64,000 nucleotides of DNA from Halovenus aranensis (GTDB taxonomy: Archaea > Halobacteriota > Halobacteria > Halobacteriales > Haloarculaceae): contig NZ_FNFC01000016.1 in assembly GCF_900100385.1 (NCBI RefSeq), positions 1-64,000 on the forward strand, in the 5' to 3' direction. A program made the translations under genes and the position numbers. Shown here one piece after another: positions 33,646 through 51,425 of the stretch. Under the pieces are notes generated by a model. It was not told the origin of the DNA. It did not search any database and saw nothing but the letters and a program-made list of their open reading frames with translations. The stretch's first letter is position 1. Every line of letters starts with the position of its first letter.

Positions 33646-33655
33646 TTATATGTTT
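33646..33655 (+). promoter_or_regulatory. Box A of the halocyanin gene
   Basis: gtatttatat, centred about 81 bases before the ATG at 33732, is a strong TATA candidate. It predicts a leader of about 55 bases, unlike the leaderless genes around it. Confidence 0.4.
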
Positions 33656-33731
33656 GTTCGTTTCTCAGGGGTCTGGAACCCCAAAACCGAAGCTTTCAAT
33701 CGGGCGTAGTCGTAACCCCAGATTGGAAACA

Positions 33732-34247
33732 ATGACTGAGTTTGATATCGACCGGCGGAAGGTACTGAAAGCTGGTGGAGCGACACTGATGTTGGCGACT
33801 GCCGGCTGTATGGGTGGCGGCGACGGCGACGACGGCAGTGACGGTGAAGACGGCAGTGATGGGAGCGACGGCAGTGATGGGAGCGACGGCAGCGACGGCG
33901 GCGACGTGCCGAGCGAGGTCGCTGACCACCTTTCAGATGCCAACGGCTACGACGGTACCGTCGAGGACATGACCGGTCAGGACTCGGTCACTATCGAGAA
34001 CGGGACCAACGAGCCAGACTACGCGTTCAATCCGGCAGCGGTCCGGGTCAGCACCGGAACGGAGGTCACGTGGAACTGGGTCAGCAACGGCCACTCTGTC
34101 AAAGCGACGAGTGGTGCTGACTTCGACTCGGGCATCGAAAGCGAAGGCTTCAGTCATACCGAGACCTTCGACGAGTCCGGCGTCGTGCTCTACGTGTGTA
34201 CCCCACACCAGGCAGTTGGTCAGCTCGGCGCGGTGATAGTGGAATGA
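33732..34247 (+). CDS. Halocyanin-like blue copper lipoprotein with Gln at the axial position
   Basis: 171 residues. Twin arginines (DRRKVLKAGG), a hydrophobic core and a lipobox (TAGC, Cys26) predict Tat export and lipid anchoring. A disordered Asp/Gly/Ser linker (repeats of DGSDGS) spans about 30-58. The cupredoxin domain holds copper ligands His121, Cys156 and His159. At the Met position of the C-x-x-H-x4-M pattern there is Gln164 (CTPHQAVGQLG). Gln is the axial ligand in stellacyanin and lowers redox potential. It lies upstream of an iron-sulfur/NrfD operon and may exchange electrons with it. Confidence 0.88.
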   Translation: MTEFDIDRRKVLKAGGATLMLATAGCMGGGDGDDGSDGEDGSDGSDGSDGSDGSDGGDVPSEVADHLSDANGYDGTVEDMTGQDSVTIENGTNEPDYAFNPAAVRVSTGTEVTWNWVSNGHSVKATSGADFDSGIESEGFSHTETFDESGVVLYVCTPHQAVGQLGAVIVE

Positions 34248-44960: not shown

Positions 44961-45926
44961 TTATCGGGACTGTTCGTCCACCTGCTCCGTTAGTGATTCG
45001 ATTTCGTCGCCGTCGACGCTGAGGAACGGGCCAGGAATCGTCTTCACGAGGACAGAACTGGCGACGGCGACACTGAGTGCGCGCGCGGCGTCTGACCCCT
45101 GGACGAGTTCGTGAAGCAGCCCACCGGTGAACGCGCTCGCGTCCCCCATTGGGTCGACTATTTCGGCGTCGATGGCGGTCCGCTCGTGGACGACGTTGGT
45201 CCCGGGCGTATCGTGAAGTGCAATTGCGCTGCCGTCAGCTCGTCTGATGACGACCATCTGGAGGTCGTATATCGCAGAGAGTGTGTTCGTCAGTTCCCGG
45301 GGTGAGCCGGTTTCGTTGAGTACCTCGCCGACCGCGTCGTCGGTCGTGATGAAGACATCGACCTCGTCAGCGAGTGTCTCGAAAGCCTGTTTGAACGACT
45401 CCGGAGACGCCAGCCCGGGTGTGTAATCGAGTTCGACCGCGGTGACCGTCCCGCTGCCCGCACTCGCTCGGAGGATCGCCTCGGCGGTGTCCGCGGCGGC
45501 CGAGGAGAGGACGGCCGAGCTCACAGCGGTATAGACGAGCGAGGCGTCTTGCATTCGCTCTATCGGGAACTCACCGGGTTGAGCAGACGAGAGTGCGGTA
45601 TCTCGGCGGTCGTGCCAGTATCTGCTTTCGCGTGGTGGTGCGGCCGCCTCTCGAAACGAGATGCCCTGGCGGTAGCTGTCGTCGGTCCAGGTGACGGCCG
45701 TCTCGACGCCGGTGGCGGCAATCTGGCGGGTGACGTTGCGCCCGATAGCAGTGTCGGGTACCTTGCTCACCCAGGCCGCGTCCGTCCCGTGTGCGGCGGC
45801 TGCGACAGCCGCGTTACTCTCGGTTCCGTCGGCATACAGTTCGAGCGTCTCAGTCATCTCGATGCGTCCATTACCCGGCGGCGACAGCCGAACCGGGGTC
45901 TCCCCAAACGTTACGAGCCCGTCCAT
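44961..45926 (-). CDS. PfkB-family sugar kinase with altered catalytic motif
   Basis: 321 residues with the ribokinase fold. It opens with FGETPVRLSPPGNGRIE, and DGTESNAAVAAAAHGT is the N-terminal sugar-binding motif, most like 2-keto-3-deoxygluconate kinases. The C-terminal family motif D-T-x-G-A-G-D is here DPMGDASAF (residues 258-266): the catalytic base Asp is replaced by Ser264. Either the base lies elsewhere or the protein no longer phosphorylates sugars. The gene ends 4 bases before the YgfZ-type gene. Confidence 0.8.
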   Translation of the reverse strand: MDGLVTFGETPVRLSPPGNGRIEMTETLELYADGTESNAAVAAAAHGTDAAWVSKVPDTAIGRNVTRQIAATGVETAVTWTDDSYRQGISFREAAAPPRESRYWHDRRDTALSSAQPGEFPIERMQDASLVYTAVSSAVLSSAAADTAEAILRASAGSGTVTAVELDYTPGLASPESFKQAFETLADEVDVFITTDDAVGEVLNETGSPRELTNTLSAIYDLQMVVIRRADGSAIALHDTPGTNVVHERTAIDAEIVDPMGDASAFTGGLLHELVQGSDAARALSVAVASSVLVKTIPGPFLSVDGDEIESLTEQVDEQSR

Positions 45927-45963
45927 ACCGGCTCATGCACACCGAGGGGCTTAACGGTCGGGG

Positions 45964-46686
45964 TCACGCCTGGCCGTCGCCGTCGTCGATATCGTCGACG
46001 ACATCGGTGACGGTCTCCTCGACAGTCTGTTCGACGGTTTCCTCGACGCTATCTTCGACGGTCTCCTCGACGGCCTGTTCGACTGTCTCTTCGACGCTGT
46101 CCTCAACAGTCTGTTCGACGGTCTCCTCGACGCTATCTTCGACAGTCTCCTCGACGGCCTGTTCGACTGTCTCTTCGACGCTACCCCCGACCGTGTCCTC
46201 GACGGCCTGCTCGACGGTGTCTTCGACGGTTTCCTCGACGCTATCTTCGACGGTCTCCTCGACGGCCTGTTCGACGGTGGCTCCGACTGATTTTTCGACA
46301 GTATGTTGCATCTGCTCGGAGACCGTCTCCTCGACGGCCTGCTCAACCTCCTTACCGACGGCGTCCTCGACAGCGTCGTCCATCGACTGTCCGACAGACT
46401 CCTGAACGGCGTCGTCGACCTGGTCGCCGACGGCGTCTTCGACGGTCTGTTCGACCGTTTCGTCGACGCTTTTCTCGACAGTTTCTTGAACGGTCCGGGT
46501 CATCCACTCGGGGTCGAACCGCGCCATCTTCCAGACGACGTGGATGACATACGAGAGCAATACACCGATACCAAAGGCGATGCCCACCCCCTGCGGACCA
46601 AACAGCATCACGACGACTGCACCGAAAATCAACGCCCCGTAGGTGAGGTCGACGAGCGCATCGACACGCACCGGATTCACGTTCAT
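45964..46686 (-). CDS. Membrane protein with unbroken tetrapeptide repeat tail
   Basis: 240 residues from the ATG at 46686. Two membrane segments (about 16-30 and 34-52) precede a tail in which every fourth residue from 66 to 230 is Val (Met at 102 and 126): VEET, VEDS, VEQA and similar units, 42 in all, without a single insertion. The tail is very acidic and should be helical, but its period of 4.0 fits neither heptad nor hendecad coiled coils. The function is unknown. An open frame to 46737 would overlap the amidohydrolase gene and is not favoured. Confidence 0.8.
   Translation of the reverse strand: MNVNPVRVDALVDLTYGALIFGAVVVMLFGPQGVGIAFGIGVLLSYVIHVVWKMARFDPEWMTRTVQETVEKSVDETVEQTVEDAVGDQVDDAVQESVGQSMDDAVEDAVGKEVEQAVEETVSEQMQHTVEKSVGATVEQAVEETVEDSVEETVEDTVEQAVEDTVGGSVEETVEQAVEETVEDSVEETVEQTVEDSVEETVEQAVEETVEDSVEETVEQTVEETVTDVVDDIDDGDGQA
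45997..46491 (-). repeat. 12-bp imperfect tandem repeat encoding V-E-x-x units
   Basis: About 41 copies of a 12-base unit (consensus gtcgaggagacc on the reverse strand) encode the four-residue repeats of the membrane protein. Copies in 46000-46300 are most alike, those toward 46490 more diverged, suggesting growth by slippage or unequal exchange while the frame was kept. Confidence 0.85.
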
Positions 46687-46733: not shown

Positions 46734-48263
46734 TCACCCGCGGTCGTCGTAGACAGTCTCGCCGCCGACGACGGTCATCGACACGTCGATGCCGGCAATA
46801 TCGTCGCTCTCCCAGGGCGACTCCTCGAGTACCACGAAATCGGCGCAGTGGCCCGCTTCGACCGTGCCGAGGCGGTCCTCGTCGAAGCCAGCGTACGCCC
46901 CGCCGGCGGTGTAGGCCCGAAGCGCCTCCGTCACTGAGAGAGACTGTGCCTGTGTCGGTGCGTCGACGGCCTGTGCAACGCCAAACAGCGGGTCCATCGG
47001 CATGCAGTCACTCCCGAATGCGAGTGTCGCTCCCGACTCGAGTAGCGTCCCGAAGCGATTCGAGTCCTCCCGGCGCTGGTCGCCGATGCGGTCGGTGTAG
47101 AGGCCACCCTCTCGTGCCCACTTCAGGAAGTTCGGCTGTGCGGAGACGACGACATCCTCGTCGGCGAGGCGGTCGATGAGGTCGTCTCTGAGTATCTCTG
47201 CGTGTTCGATACGGTGGCGCTGGCCGTCGGTTGCCTCGTAAGCGTCGAGTGTGGTCTCGATTGCGCTGTCGCCGATAGCGTGGACCGTCATCTGGAGGCC
47301 GGCATCGTCGACACGCTCGATCAGGTCCTGTACTGTCTCCGGGTCGACGACCCAGGAGCCGTCTTCCCCGGGGGCGTCGGCGTACGGCGTCGAGAGCTTC
47401 GCGGTTCTGCCGCCGATGCTCCCATCGGTAAACGTCTTGATACCGCCGACACGGACGCGGTCGGTCCCGTGGTTCGTCCGGAGACCGGTCTCGATGACCG
47501 CGTCGAAGTGGTCTCGCCAGTAGTTGATGCGGACGCGGACCGACAGCTCGTCGGCCTGGTCGAGTTCCCTGTAGACCCGCGGGGCCGGGGAGTTGCGGAC
47601 CATGTCGTGGACCCCGGTAATGCCCAAGCTGTTTGCCTCTGCCTGTGCAGCGAGGAGGTACTCGCGCATTCCCTCGGGGTCGGGAGCTGTCTCCTCACGA
47701 AGCACGTCGAGTGCGTCTTCGACGACCACGCCGGTCGGCTCGCCGTCCGCTTTCCTGACATCCTCGGCGGGCATCTGGTCGACGTATGCTTCGAGGACGA
47801 CGCTGTTGACCGAGGCCAGATGGAGGTCCTCGCGGTAGGCGACGACGGGCCGGTCGGTGCTGACGCTGTCGAGTTGGTCGCGCGTGAGATACTCCCCGCC
47901 CCACGCGCTCTCGTCGTAGCCAAAGCCAAGTACCCAGCCCTCACTCTCCTCACGCTGGGCTGCGAGCAAGTCGAGACAGTCTGTCGGGTCGTCTGCCTCC
48001 GAGAGGTCAGCCTCGGTCGCGTACTTGCCGACGATGTCCATGTGCGTGTGCGCGTCGATGAACCCGGGGAGGAGCGTCCGCCCCTCCAGGTCGATTACTT
48101 CTGTCTCGACGCCGTTGAGGAACTCGACTTCGTAGGCCGAGTCCACGCGGACGATACTGCCGTCTCGGACGGCGACGGCCTCGGCTGTCGGCTCGCCCGT
48201 CTCCTCGGCCGTGAGCGGATGGACGGCCGCGTTCGTGAAGATGCGGTCAGCAGCCTGTGTCAT
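46734..48263 (-). CDS. Amidohydrolase (YtcJ-like, amidohydrolase family 3)
   Basis: 509 residues. Metal-binding motifs of the superfamily are present: LLPGFIDAHTHMDIVG (His-x-His), GGIKTFTDGSIGGRTA (Lys region), VHAIGDSAIE, HRIEHAEIL and FGSDCMPMDPL (Asp). These enzymes hydrolyse amides of diverse, usually unknown, substrates. The ATG at 48263 (MTQAADRIFTNAAVHPL) is the family-like start. It points toward the repeat gene, whose start lies 47 bases beyond its stop. Confidence 0.88.
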   Translation of the reverse strand: MTQAADRIFTNAAVHPLTAEETGEPTAEAVAVRDGSIVRVDSAYEVEFLNGVETEVIDLEGRTLLPGFIDAHTHMDIVGKYATEADLSEADDPTDCLDLLAAQREESEGWVLGFGYDESAWGGEYLTRDQLDSVSTDRPVVAYREDLHLASVNSVVLEAYVDQMPAEDVRKADGEPTGVVVEDALDVLREETAPDPEGMREYLLAAQAEANSLGITGVHDMVRNSPAPRVYRELDQADELSVRVRINYWRDHFDAVIETGLRTNHGTDRVRVGGIKTFTDGSIGGRTAKLSTPYADAPGEDGSWVVDPETVQDLIERVDDAGLQMTVHAIGDSAIETTLDAYEATDGQRHRIEHAEILRDDLIDRLADEDVVVSAQPNFLKWAREGGLYTDRIGDQRREDSNRFGTLLESGATLAFGSDCMPMDPLFGVAQAVDAPTQAQSLSVTEALRAYTAGGAYAGFDEDRLGTVEAGHCADFVVLEESPWESDDIAGIDVSMTVVGGETVYDDRG

Positions 48264-48327
48264 GGTACGCACACCGGCCGCGAGCGCGTTAACCGTTTGG
48301 GAACACGGTCACCTCGGACCAGAACTG

Positions 48328-48960: not shown

Positions 48961-49830
48961 ATGGGACGTATCGATGTCGAGAGAGTCCCCTATGAGGACT
49001 ACTCTAACCGCCAGCTAATCGCCGTGCCACTGGCGATTCTCGCGGTTGCTATTGGGGTGTTGGCCCTCGCATATCTACTCACAGGGACGCCGGTCGCATT
49101 GGGATTTGATTTCACAGGCGGGACAACCGTCCAGTTCACCGCCGACGATGCCTCTGCCGGCGACATCCGTGACGACCTTTCCGGGTTCGAGACCGAGTCT
49201 GTCCGGTCGATTGGCTTTGGCAACGACTACGAGGTCGAGACGCAACTCGAAGAGACCGACGAACTCGAGTCGGCTATCGAAGACAGATACGGCGACGACG
49301 CCATACAGTCCGTCGAGACGCGGTCGGCGAAGTTCGGTGGCGACACACAACGGGAAGCGCTAGTGGGTGTCGTGGTTGCGTTTCTCGGCATGTCGGTTCT
49401 CGTTGCGCTCATCTTCCGGTCGCTCGTGCCGAGCGTCGCGGTTGTCGCCTCGGCGTTTTCGGATATCGTCGTGCCGCTCGCGCTGATGCGCGTGTTCGGT
49501 ATCGAACTGAGTCTTGGTGCCGTGGCCGCGCTGTTGATGATTATCGGATACAGCGTGGACTCGGACATCCTGCTGAACAACCACGTCCTGAAACGCCACG
49601 GCGAGTTCTACGACAGTGCCTACCGGGCGATGCGAACAGGTGTGTCGATGACGCTTACCTCCGTCGCCGCGATGGTCACGATGGCAATCGTTTCCCGGTT
49701 ACTCGGGATTCCGCTGCTCGATGACGTCGCCCTCATCCTGACTTTCGGATTAGTGACCGACCTGCTCAACACCTACATGCTCAACATAAGTCTACTTCGG
49801 TGGTACAAGTACGAAGGGGTGAAACGATGA
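48961..49830 (+). CDS. secF: Protein-export membrane protein SecF
   Basis: 289 residues with six membrane helices. The first is near 20-42, followed by GFDFTGGTTVQFT and an extracytoplasmic domain. The rest holds the SecF core (VALIFRSLVPSVAVVASAFSDI, IIGYSVDSDILLNNHVL). With SecD it uses the proton or ion gradient to aid Sec-dependent export. Archaea order the pair secF-secD, as here. The stop overlaps the secD ATG. A cttatt box lies about 30 bases upstream. Confidence 0.95.
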   Translation: MGRIDVERVPYEDYSNRQLIAVPLAILAVAIGVLALAYLLTGTPVALGFDFTGGTTVQFTADDASAGDIRDDLSGFETESVRSIGFGNDYEVETQLEETDELESAIEDRYGDDAIQSVETRSAKFGGDTQREALVGVVVAFLGMSVLVALIFRSLVPSVAVVASAFSDIVVPLALMRVFGIELSLGAVAALLMIIGYSVDSDILLNNHVLKRHGEFYDSAYRAMRTGVSMTLTSVAAMVTMAIVSRLLGIPLLDDVALILTFGLVTDLLNTYMLNISLLRWYKYEGVKR

Positions 49831-51425
49831 TTGACGTGCGAGACAACTGGCGAGTGTTGCTGTTGCTCGGCCTGTGTGTACTCGCTGCACTCGCGCTGTT
49901 TGGCCCGCTGGGTGCAGATTCCGGTGACACGGGACTCAACGAGAGTGAACAGCAGGTCAGCGACCCGACGAATCTCCAGTACGGGCTCGAACTCTCGGGT
50001 GGAACCCGAATCCGAGGCCTGCTAGAGGGACTCATCGCCGAGGATATGAACACCGGTGGGGAGGACCCCTCGACCGTAGCGCGAGACTTGGCAAGCGAAC
50101 TGGAAACCGATGGCATCAACGTCACAGTGCGCCAGCGCGGGCCCGACCGCGCCGACATCGAGCTGTTCGACAGGAGCATCACCGCCTCTGAGTTTGCCGA
50201 TGGACTCTCAGCCATCGGCATCGACGCCACGACTGACGATATCGAAGACGGGACGACCTCGGAAACACGAAGCGAAGCCGTCGACACGATTTCGGAACGT
50301 ATCGACAGAACCGGGCTTGGCGGGTCCAGCGTCACGACCGTCAGCTCGGCGACCGGCGAGGACTTCATCGTCGTCGAAGTTCCCGGCGAAGACCGTGAGA
50401 CGGTCGAGGAACTCATCGGAGACCCGGGACGTGTACAGGTCATCGCCGGCTACCCCGTCAGAACTGACAACGGGACTGAACTTCAGACAGAAGAAGTACT
50501 GACCGGCGAAGACTTTACTAACATCTCGCCCGCAGAGCGCCCAGGTAACCGGAATCCGTTCCCGCGAGTGCCGGTGGCGCTCACCGACCAGGCCGGCCAG
50601 CGGTACGCCAACCTGATGCAGGAGGCCGGTTTCACCGGCGAGGGTATCGGTGTCTGTGACTTCAACGCGACGGCCCACGACGGGCCACGCGAGGGACAGT
50701 GGTGTCTCTACACTGTCGTCGACGGCGAATACGTCTACGGCGCGAGCATGAGTGACGGTCTGGCGGAAGATATCAACGCCGGTGACTTCCGGACGAACCC
50801 CTCGTTCGTGCTCCAGACCCAGTCGTTCGAGGAGGCACAACAGCTCGAAGTCAACCTCCGTGCCGGCGCGCTGCCGACGAACCTGACCATCGAATCGTCG
50901 AGTTTCATCTCGCCGAGTCTGGCACAGAAGTTCAAGCCACTCGCACTGATAACGGGTATCGCCGCCTGGATATCGGTCGCACTCGTCGTCTACGTCTGGT
51001 ACCGTGACGTGCGCGTCGCCGTCCCGATGTTCCTCACAGCTAGCAGCGAGGTGTTCCTGTTGCTCGGGTTTGCGGCCTCTTTCGGGATGGCGCTCGACCT
51101 GTCTCACATCGCGGGGCTGATTGCCGTCATCGGGACCGGGCTGGACGACCTCATCATCATGGCAGACGAGATATTACAACGCAAGGAGAAAGTCCAGACC
51201 GGCCGTGTGTTCCAGAGCCGGTTCCGAAAGGCCTTCTGGGTCATTGGCATGGCTGCCGCGACGACCATCATCGCGATGAGCCCGCTGGCGGTGCTGAGCC
51301 TCGGCGACCTGCAAGGATTCGCTATCATCACCATCATCGGTGTGCTCATCGGGGTGTTCATCACCCGACCGGCCTACGGTGACGTACTCCGAACGCTGAT
51401 GCTCGACGACGTCGACCGGTCGTAG
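49827..51425 (+). CDS. secD: Protein-export membrane protein SecD
   Basis: 532 residues. The first membrane helix (about 9-25) is followed by LQYGLELSGGTRI, a large extracytoplasmic region (about 45-365), and five C-terminal helices containing AVIGTGLDDLIIMADEIL. It works with SecF. The ATG at 49827 overlaps the secF stop. The length is normal for archaeal SecD. Confidence 0.95.
   Translation: MIDVRDNWRVLLLLGLCVLAALALFGPLGADSGDTGLNESEQQVSDPTNLQYGLELSGGTRIRGLLEGLIAEDMNTGGEDPSTVARDLASELETDGINVTVRQRGPDRADIELFDRSITASEFADGLSAIGIDATTDDIEDGTTSETRSEAVDTISERIDRTGLGGSSVTTVSSATGEDFIVVEVPGEDRETVEELIGDPGRVQVIAGYPVRTDNGTELQTEEVLTGEDFTNISPAERPGNRNPFPRVPVALTDQAGQRYANLMQEAGFTGEGIGVCDFNATAHDGPREGQWCLYTVVDGEYVYGASMSDGLAEDINAGDFRTNPSFVLQTQSFEEAQQLEVNLRAGALPTNLTIESSSFISPSLAQKFKPLALITGIAAWISVALVVYVWYRDVRVAVPMFLTASSEVFLLLGFAASFGMALDLSHIAGLIAVIGTGLDDLIIMADEILQRKEKVQTGRVFQSRFRKAFWVIGMAAATTIIAMSPLAVLSLGDLQGFAIITIIGVLIGVFITRPAYGDVLRTLMLDDVDRS

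Follow-up and report, generated by a model that had tools for sequence, protein, structure and literature searches.

What does a protein do with a tail in which every fourth residue is hydrophobic, and with what does it work in the cell? The question is raised by one gene in the window, a stretch of 64,000 nucleotides from contig NZ_FNFC01000016.1 of Halovenus aranensis. The original prediction described a membrane protein with an unbroken period-4 tail and considered a right-handed bundle, an acidic brush fitted to high salt or a membrane-surface helix. The features concerned are collected in the table. Besides the ATG there is an alternative GTG start 2 codons 3' of it. An antisense low-complexity open reading frame was set aside, as it is the minus strand that encodes the conserved anchor. 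The gene belongs to a same-strand series, with an amidohydrolase upstream and, on the other flank, a PfkB-family kinase, after which comes a GCV_T-family protein; both the amidohydrolase and the kinase are kept as neighbours in two other Halovenus genomes (L003 and L004). Elsewhere in the window an apparent lipoprotein-like blue copper protein, its identity judged by eye, carries a (D/G)GSDGSDG linker, for which a 9-bp repeat array codes.

Table. The tail gene, its parts and other features of the window
Feature	Positions	Strand	Details
Gene, two-helix membrane protein with Val-tetrad tail	45964..46686	-	240 aa; ATG at 46686 (translation)
Conserved anchor, residues 1-64	46495..46686	-	AF2 helices 5-29 and 32-56
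Val-tetrad tail, residues 62-230	45997..46503	-	43 units V-[E/G/D]-[E/D/Q]-[T/S/A], strict spacing 4
Acidic short C-terminal end, residues 231-240	45967..45996	-	Translation; variable among relatives
Antisense low-complexity ORF	45791-46405	+	Set aside
Amidohydrolase	46734-48272		Upstream neighbour, same-strand series
PfkB-family kinase	44961-45926		Other flank, same-strand series
SecF/SecD-like genes	48961-51425		Near the tail gene
Blue copper protein	33654-34247	+	Apparent lipoprotein-like protein
9-bp repeat array	33816-33906		Encodes the blue copper protein linker

In the tail, 43 residues in succession, 40 Val and 3 Met, are spaced exactly 4 apart. Translation bears out the Val or Met claimed for each fourth position between residues 66 and 230 (40 Val and 2 Met, no indel); the run of 42 units counted from there actually begins at Met62, which makes 43. 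Its peak hydrophobic period is 4.00, as in most relatives, and the strictness of this period agrees with the earlier view that the pattern is neither heptad nor hendecad. In 20,000 shuffles of the tail the longest spacing-4 run had a mean of 3.4 and a maximum of 9. Position 1 of the unit is mainly Glu, position 2 Glu, Asp or Gln, and position 3 Thr, Ser or Ala, with a net tail charge of -56, with which the proposed acidic brush is compatible. At the DNA level the tail is a tandem 12n-bp array (24/48/84-bp units, 74–85% matches), which implies that its copies arose by duplication. Apart from one 2-mismatch match on another contig, the 3.29-Mb genome contains no other run of 12 or more Val-tetrad units.

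A query with the 66-residue anchor retrieved 60 loci in haloarchaeal genomes, all of which encode Val-tetrad tails. A profile of the N-terminal conserved 64 residues (A2), searched in 392 sampled genomes of the class, matches 275 of them, in 67 of 84 genera; the combination of anchor and Val-tetrad tail was not found outside the class in any genome of the phylum sample. Fourteen anchor residues are invariant (D9, D13, Y16, G17, G41, H49, W52, K53, M54, R56, D58, W61, M62 and T63), and the region is predicted to be a two-helix membrane anchor; the original assignment as a membrane protein is upheld. The family is a real, conserved and uncharacterised group of haloarchaeal membrane proteins.

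The number of repeats, which had been proposed for comparison between strains and was compared here among relatives, varies from 6 to 82 units (82 in L100), with the spacing conserved. In 91 distinct tails the hydrophobic gaps are exactly 4 in 91.3% of cases and 3 in 5.9%; across the family Val occupies position 0 in 92.5% and Thr position 3 in 57%, and Pro makes up 0.02% of residues. Homologues thus retain the spacing of 4, and irregular spacing, named in advance as a sign that the period is accidental, is not what they display. Since 91% of gaps are exactly 4 while the runs span 6–82 units, the period is under selection. The filler residues are lineage-specific (VGETVEKT, VTEEVTES, VSKEVEET, VEGAVEES); tails of other lineages contain more Lys, yet are acidic (-0.15 to -0.36 per residue). 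The homologue from Halovenus salina is 95% identical over the N-terminal 66 aa, and comparison of its tail with that of the window protein reveals 1 replacement and 10 synonymous changes at 42 Val positions, as against 14 replacements at position 2 of the units. Close species also differ by compensating 4-residue indels in the tail. These comparisons indicate that slippage supplies the copies, while Val is kept by selection and copy number drifts. An end piece that we read as heptad-like, e.g. EVDAVIERLEEVNDRVDRRPRADEVEE, stands at the end of or within about half of the complete tails (46 of 88 distinct ones). One tail (L306) contains two copies of the EVNERVDRRPREDEVEE end piece with tetrads between them.

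An AF2 model of the monomer, based on 43 sequences (mean pLDDT 70.5, pTM 0.25), contains, in addition to the two anchor helices, helices at 59–99 and 113–233, the latter with pLDDT of about 65–83 and preceded by a low-confidence gap at 101–111. The tail is thus predicted, with moderate confidence, to be a long single helix. Basic residues flank the helix pair of the anchor (R7 before, K53/R56 after), which by the positive-inside rule suggests an N-in/C-in topology and a cytoplasmic tail.

The tail resembles coiled coils (heptad, hendecad, pentadecad, and YadA with 3.8) in being a long helix with periodic hydrophobic residues, but its period lies above their upper limit of about 3.9 residues, the most extreme known value being 3.8, and a period of 4.0 is stated not to be accessible to coiled coils (Hartmann et al. 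2016, PMC4786415). Coiled-coil periodicities fall at about 3.3–3.9 residues per turn, and the window tail, at 4.00, is outside this range. According to a Crick-type calculation, a period of 4.0 would require a supercoil angle of 31, 45 or 54 degrees for 2, 3 or 4 helices and a radius of curvature of the helix axis of 12–18 A, compared with 113 A for a heptad dimer. Because this angle and curvature are untenable and the published limit is exceeded, a continuous right-handed coiled coil is very unlikely, and with it falls the continuous form of the right-handed bundle suggested originally. The order of the Val stripe is 0.96 when each residue turns by 90 degrees and 0.08 when it turns by 100; on a straight helix it is 0.08 for the whole tail versus 0.65 in 18-residue windows. 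Short local contacts of the stripe are possible, and there is no single continuous face. We infer a single helix with crossing contacts.

No credible Pfam, NCBIfam or PDB family was found for the window protein or its relatives, including LEA or other characterised repeat domains, for which no credible match exceeded the cut-off. Matches at or above the Pfam cut-off to COMPASS-Shg1 (L004), CdrL_M (L013) and YpjP (L036) were rejected as short compositional stretches in one or a few members each, as were weak, register-shifting and compositional matches to DUF445, CdrL_M, GvpQ, SseC, salactin and bL17; no Val tetrads were found in CdrL of the same genome. DUF445 (PF04286) matches the tail weakly, by its helical pattern, in 17 of the 43 family members, but its score (25.7 bits for the window protein, 24.8–32.3 for the relatives examined) is below the curated cut-off of 33.8 and its register shifts between members, so that the match is composition-driven.

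When viral contigs were scanned for Val at every fourth residue, mostly Val-Gly/Val-Ala runs were recovered, together with DUF6745-type proteins (PF20530). The latter possess blocks of 22–33 Val-tetrad units (VWDSVRDSVGDS...; IMG/VR contigs L141, L146, L180, L220, L225 and L234) with small or polar residues at positions 2–3, but they lack such a membrane anchor, and the block is internal and rich in Trp, Arg, Gly, Asp and Ser rather than in Glu and Thr. The residue after Val in these blocks is mainly Trp, Arg or Gly, as if by single-base changes of NGG codons (predicted from the protein). The AF2 prediction for the block has pLDDT below 40. No homology between the two groups was found, and neither the window protein nor its 43 relatives matched the DUF6745 domain. 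Strict Val spacing in DUF6745 means that the pattern is not unique to the tail family; the original statement that no described domain has it holds for Pfam, NCBIfam and PDB matches of the tail protein, and uniqueness cannot be added to it. Searches of the literature for haloarchaeal tetrapeptide-repeat proteins and for DUF6745 returned no match, and the tail gene is undescribed in the papers found. Within the searched literature and databases the Val-tetrad pattern remains structurally undescribed.

Gene neighbourhoods, clustered with a composition filter against spurious GC-rich frames, provide a functional lead that the original prediction did not contain. A PHO4-family (PiT) phosphate permease, confirmed by PF01384, adjoins the tail gene in 48 of 86 usable loci, 33 times on the same strand with PiT downstream and 10 times divergently, often at a distance of -11 to +36 bp. 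In Halobacterium salinarum DSM 3754 (L022) the tail gene immediately precedes the PiT, and Halorussus too has an adjacent pair. The two genes do not adjoin in the window genome, in the genus Halovenus or in Halorubrum; in Halovenus, Halorubrum and Halostagnicola the tail gene is unlinked to PiT and lies in differing neighbourhoods. Halovenus and one Halorubrum-like genome nevertheless hold both the tail gene and the matching PiT, which in the window genome sits on another contig. A gene for a universal stress protein (Usp, PF00582) recurs beside the pair in several genera (L043, L057, L059, L060, L132). In the window, SecF/SecD-like genes occur close to the tail gene; in the Halorubrum-like genome G009 (L130:677-3192) such genes lie close to the matching PiT, possibly as a trace of an ancestral cluster.

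The phyletic distribution points to one type of permease. A profile (A3) built from 14 PiTs adjacent to tail genes gave a score in 391 of the 392 class genomes, and very high scores are almost confined to genomes with the tail gene. With the cut placed at the gap from 3.6e-176 to 1.4e-179, chosen after the gap was seen, and with two genome presence tables transcribed by hand, 256 of 392 genomes have both the tail gene and an A3-type PiT, 19 the gene only, 14 the PiT only and 103 neither (odds ratio 99, Fisher p 2.8e-58), which leaves 33 discordant genomes. The Mantel-Haenszel odds ratio within genera is 92, and 0 of 20,000 within-genus permutations matched the observed concordance. In a tree of 76 PiTs the A3-type sequences form one clade of 34 (support 0.98), which takes in every high scorer, the unlinked copy from Halovenus (L112) among them. 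Genomes with the tail gene usually hold a PiT of this clade plus others, and gene-less genomes mostly only others: in 16 sampled genomes that lack both by the profile test, every PiT falls outside the clade. Two gene-negative genomes picked as exceptions (G028 and G219) do have clade members in the tree. Two PHO4 families were reported in all 80 haloarchaea studied, with little ATP-driven phosphate uptake (Becker et al. 2014, PMC4230888). The family is thus PiT-associated both by neighbourhood and by phyletic distribution, and the association is genomic. As the tail gene travels with one type of PiT, its product is probably an unrecognised partner of that transporter.

Proteins of the DUF47/PhoU_div family (PF01865) are the known type of cytoplasmic partner of PiT/PHO4 permeases. 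Like them, the tail protein is small and encoded beside a PiT permease (PF01384), but it differs in being a membrane protein of two helices that carries a repeat tail and lacks the signature of the PhoU fold, and no PF01865 match was found in the window protein or its 43 relatives. DUF47 was also considered as an alternative partner and rejected; among 97 class genomes sampled, PF01865 is present in only 20, and its distribution does not follow that of the tail gene.

We therefore favour, with a probability of about 0.58, an accessory membrane protein of one PiT (PHO4) clade whose cytoplasmic tail is a tetrad helix that varies in length. Neighbourhood and co-occurrence support the partnership well, whereas the mechanism of the tail is a proposal. 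The anchor would dock on the permease within the membrane. The tail, reaching into the cytoplasm, would be one long alpha-helix, acidic and free of Pro, around which four ridges of i,i+4 residues (Val, Glu, Glu/Lys and Thr) would wind right-handed, one turn per nine units. Such a helix would form no extended coiled coil, but its Val ridge would face every direction and suit short helix-helix crossings at about 50–60 degrees, whether the partner is another tail or a cytoplasmic part of the permease; this makes the tail a candidate length-tolerant spacer or scaffold that may cluster or regulate the permease. The end piece EVNERVDRRPR.DEVEE of Natrialbaceae, Halorubrum and others may supply a defined point of oligomerisation. 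A bolder version, which we regard as speculative and rather unlikely, is that the tail represents a helical repeat of a new class, with a period of truly 4.0, which forms a defined assembly other than a coiled coil. This would be a mesh of crossing ridges, or a set of underwound helices with close to 4 residues per turn; tuned by repeat number, it would control the PiT permease.

The protein could instead have its own function in the membrane or envelope, for instance as a general scaffold or in stress, and coincide with PiT by shared inheritance and loss of an ancestral cluster. The unlinked genes in differing neighbourhoods of Halovenus, Halorubrum and Halostagnicola and the 19 genomes that keep the tail gene without an A3-clade PiT would fit this idea, whereas the association persists inside many genera, the pair is adjacent in both same-strand and divergent layouts in many genera, and Halovenus and the Halorubrum-like genome hold both genes though unlinked; on balance we find it doubtful, if worth keeping in mind.

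Two further alternatives concern the tail itself. Neutral low-complexity sequence generated by 12-bp slippage, with only the anchor of importance, would account for the tandem 12n-bp array, the range of 6–82 units and the compensating 4-residue indels, but hardly for synonymous changes that preserve Val next to variable positions 2 and 3, nor for 92.5% Val and the near exclusion of Pro across lineages with different fillers, and we consider it improbable. The same low credence is due to a tightly supercoiled or beta-type assembly, such as a solenoid whose faces are four residues long or helices partly underwound to 4.0 residues per turn: against the strict 4.0 period, the adjacent beta-branched Val and Thr, the small residue preceding Val and the similar blocks in DUF6745 stand the helix predicted by AF2, a Glu-rich, Pro-free and heavily charged composition, and a drift in copy number that shows no steps matching a coil of fixed size.

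Coiled-coil theory sets its limit near 3.9, whereas haloarchaea of dozens of genera have kept tails in which as many as 82 four-residue units follow one another exactly; such conserved tails are a natural test of what a sequence with a period of 4.0 does. Haloarchaea favour sodium-coupled over ATP-driven phosphate uptake (PMC4230888). Judging from a probable genus assignment, the model species Haloferax volcanii may lack both the tail gene and its PiT, and if true, this could explain why the pair went unnoticed. Through its link to one PiT clade, what was an anonymous hypothetical protein becomes a candidate partner in sodium-coupled phosphate uptake that can be put to the test.
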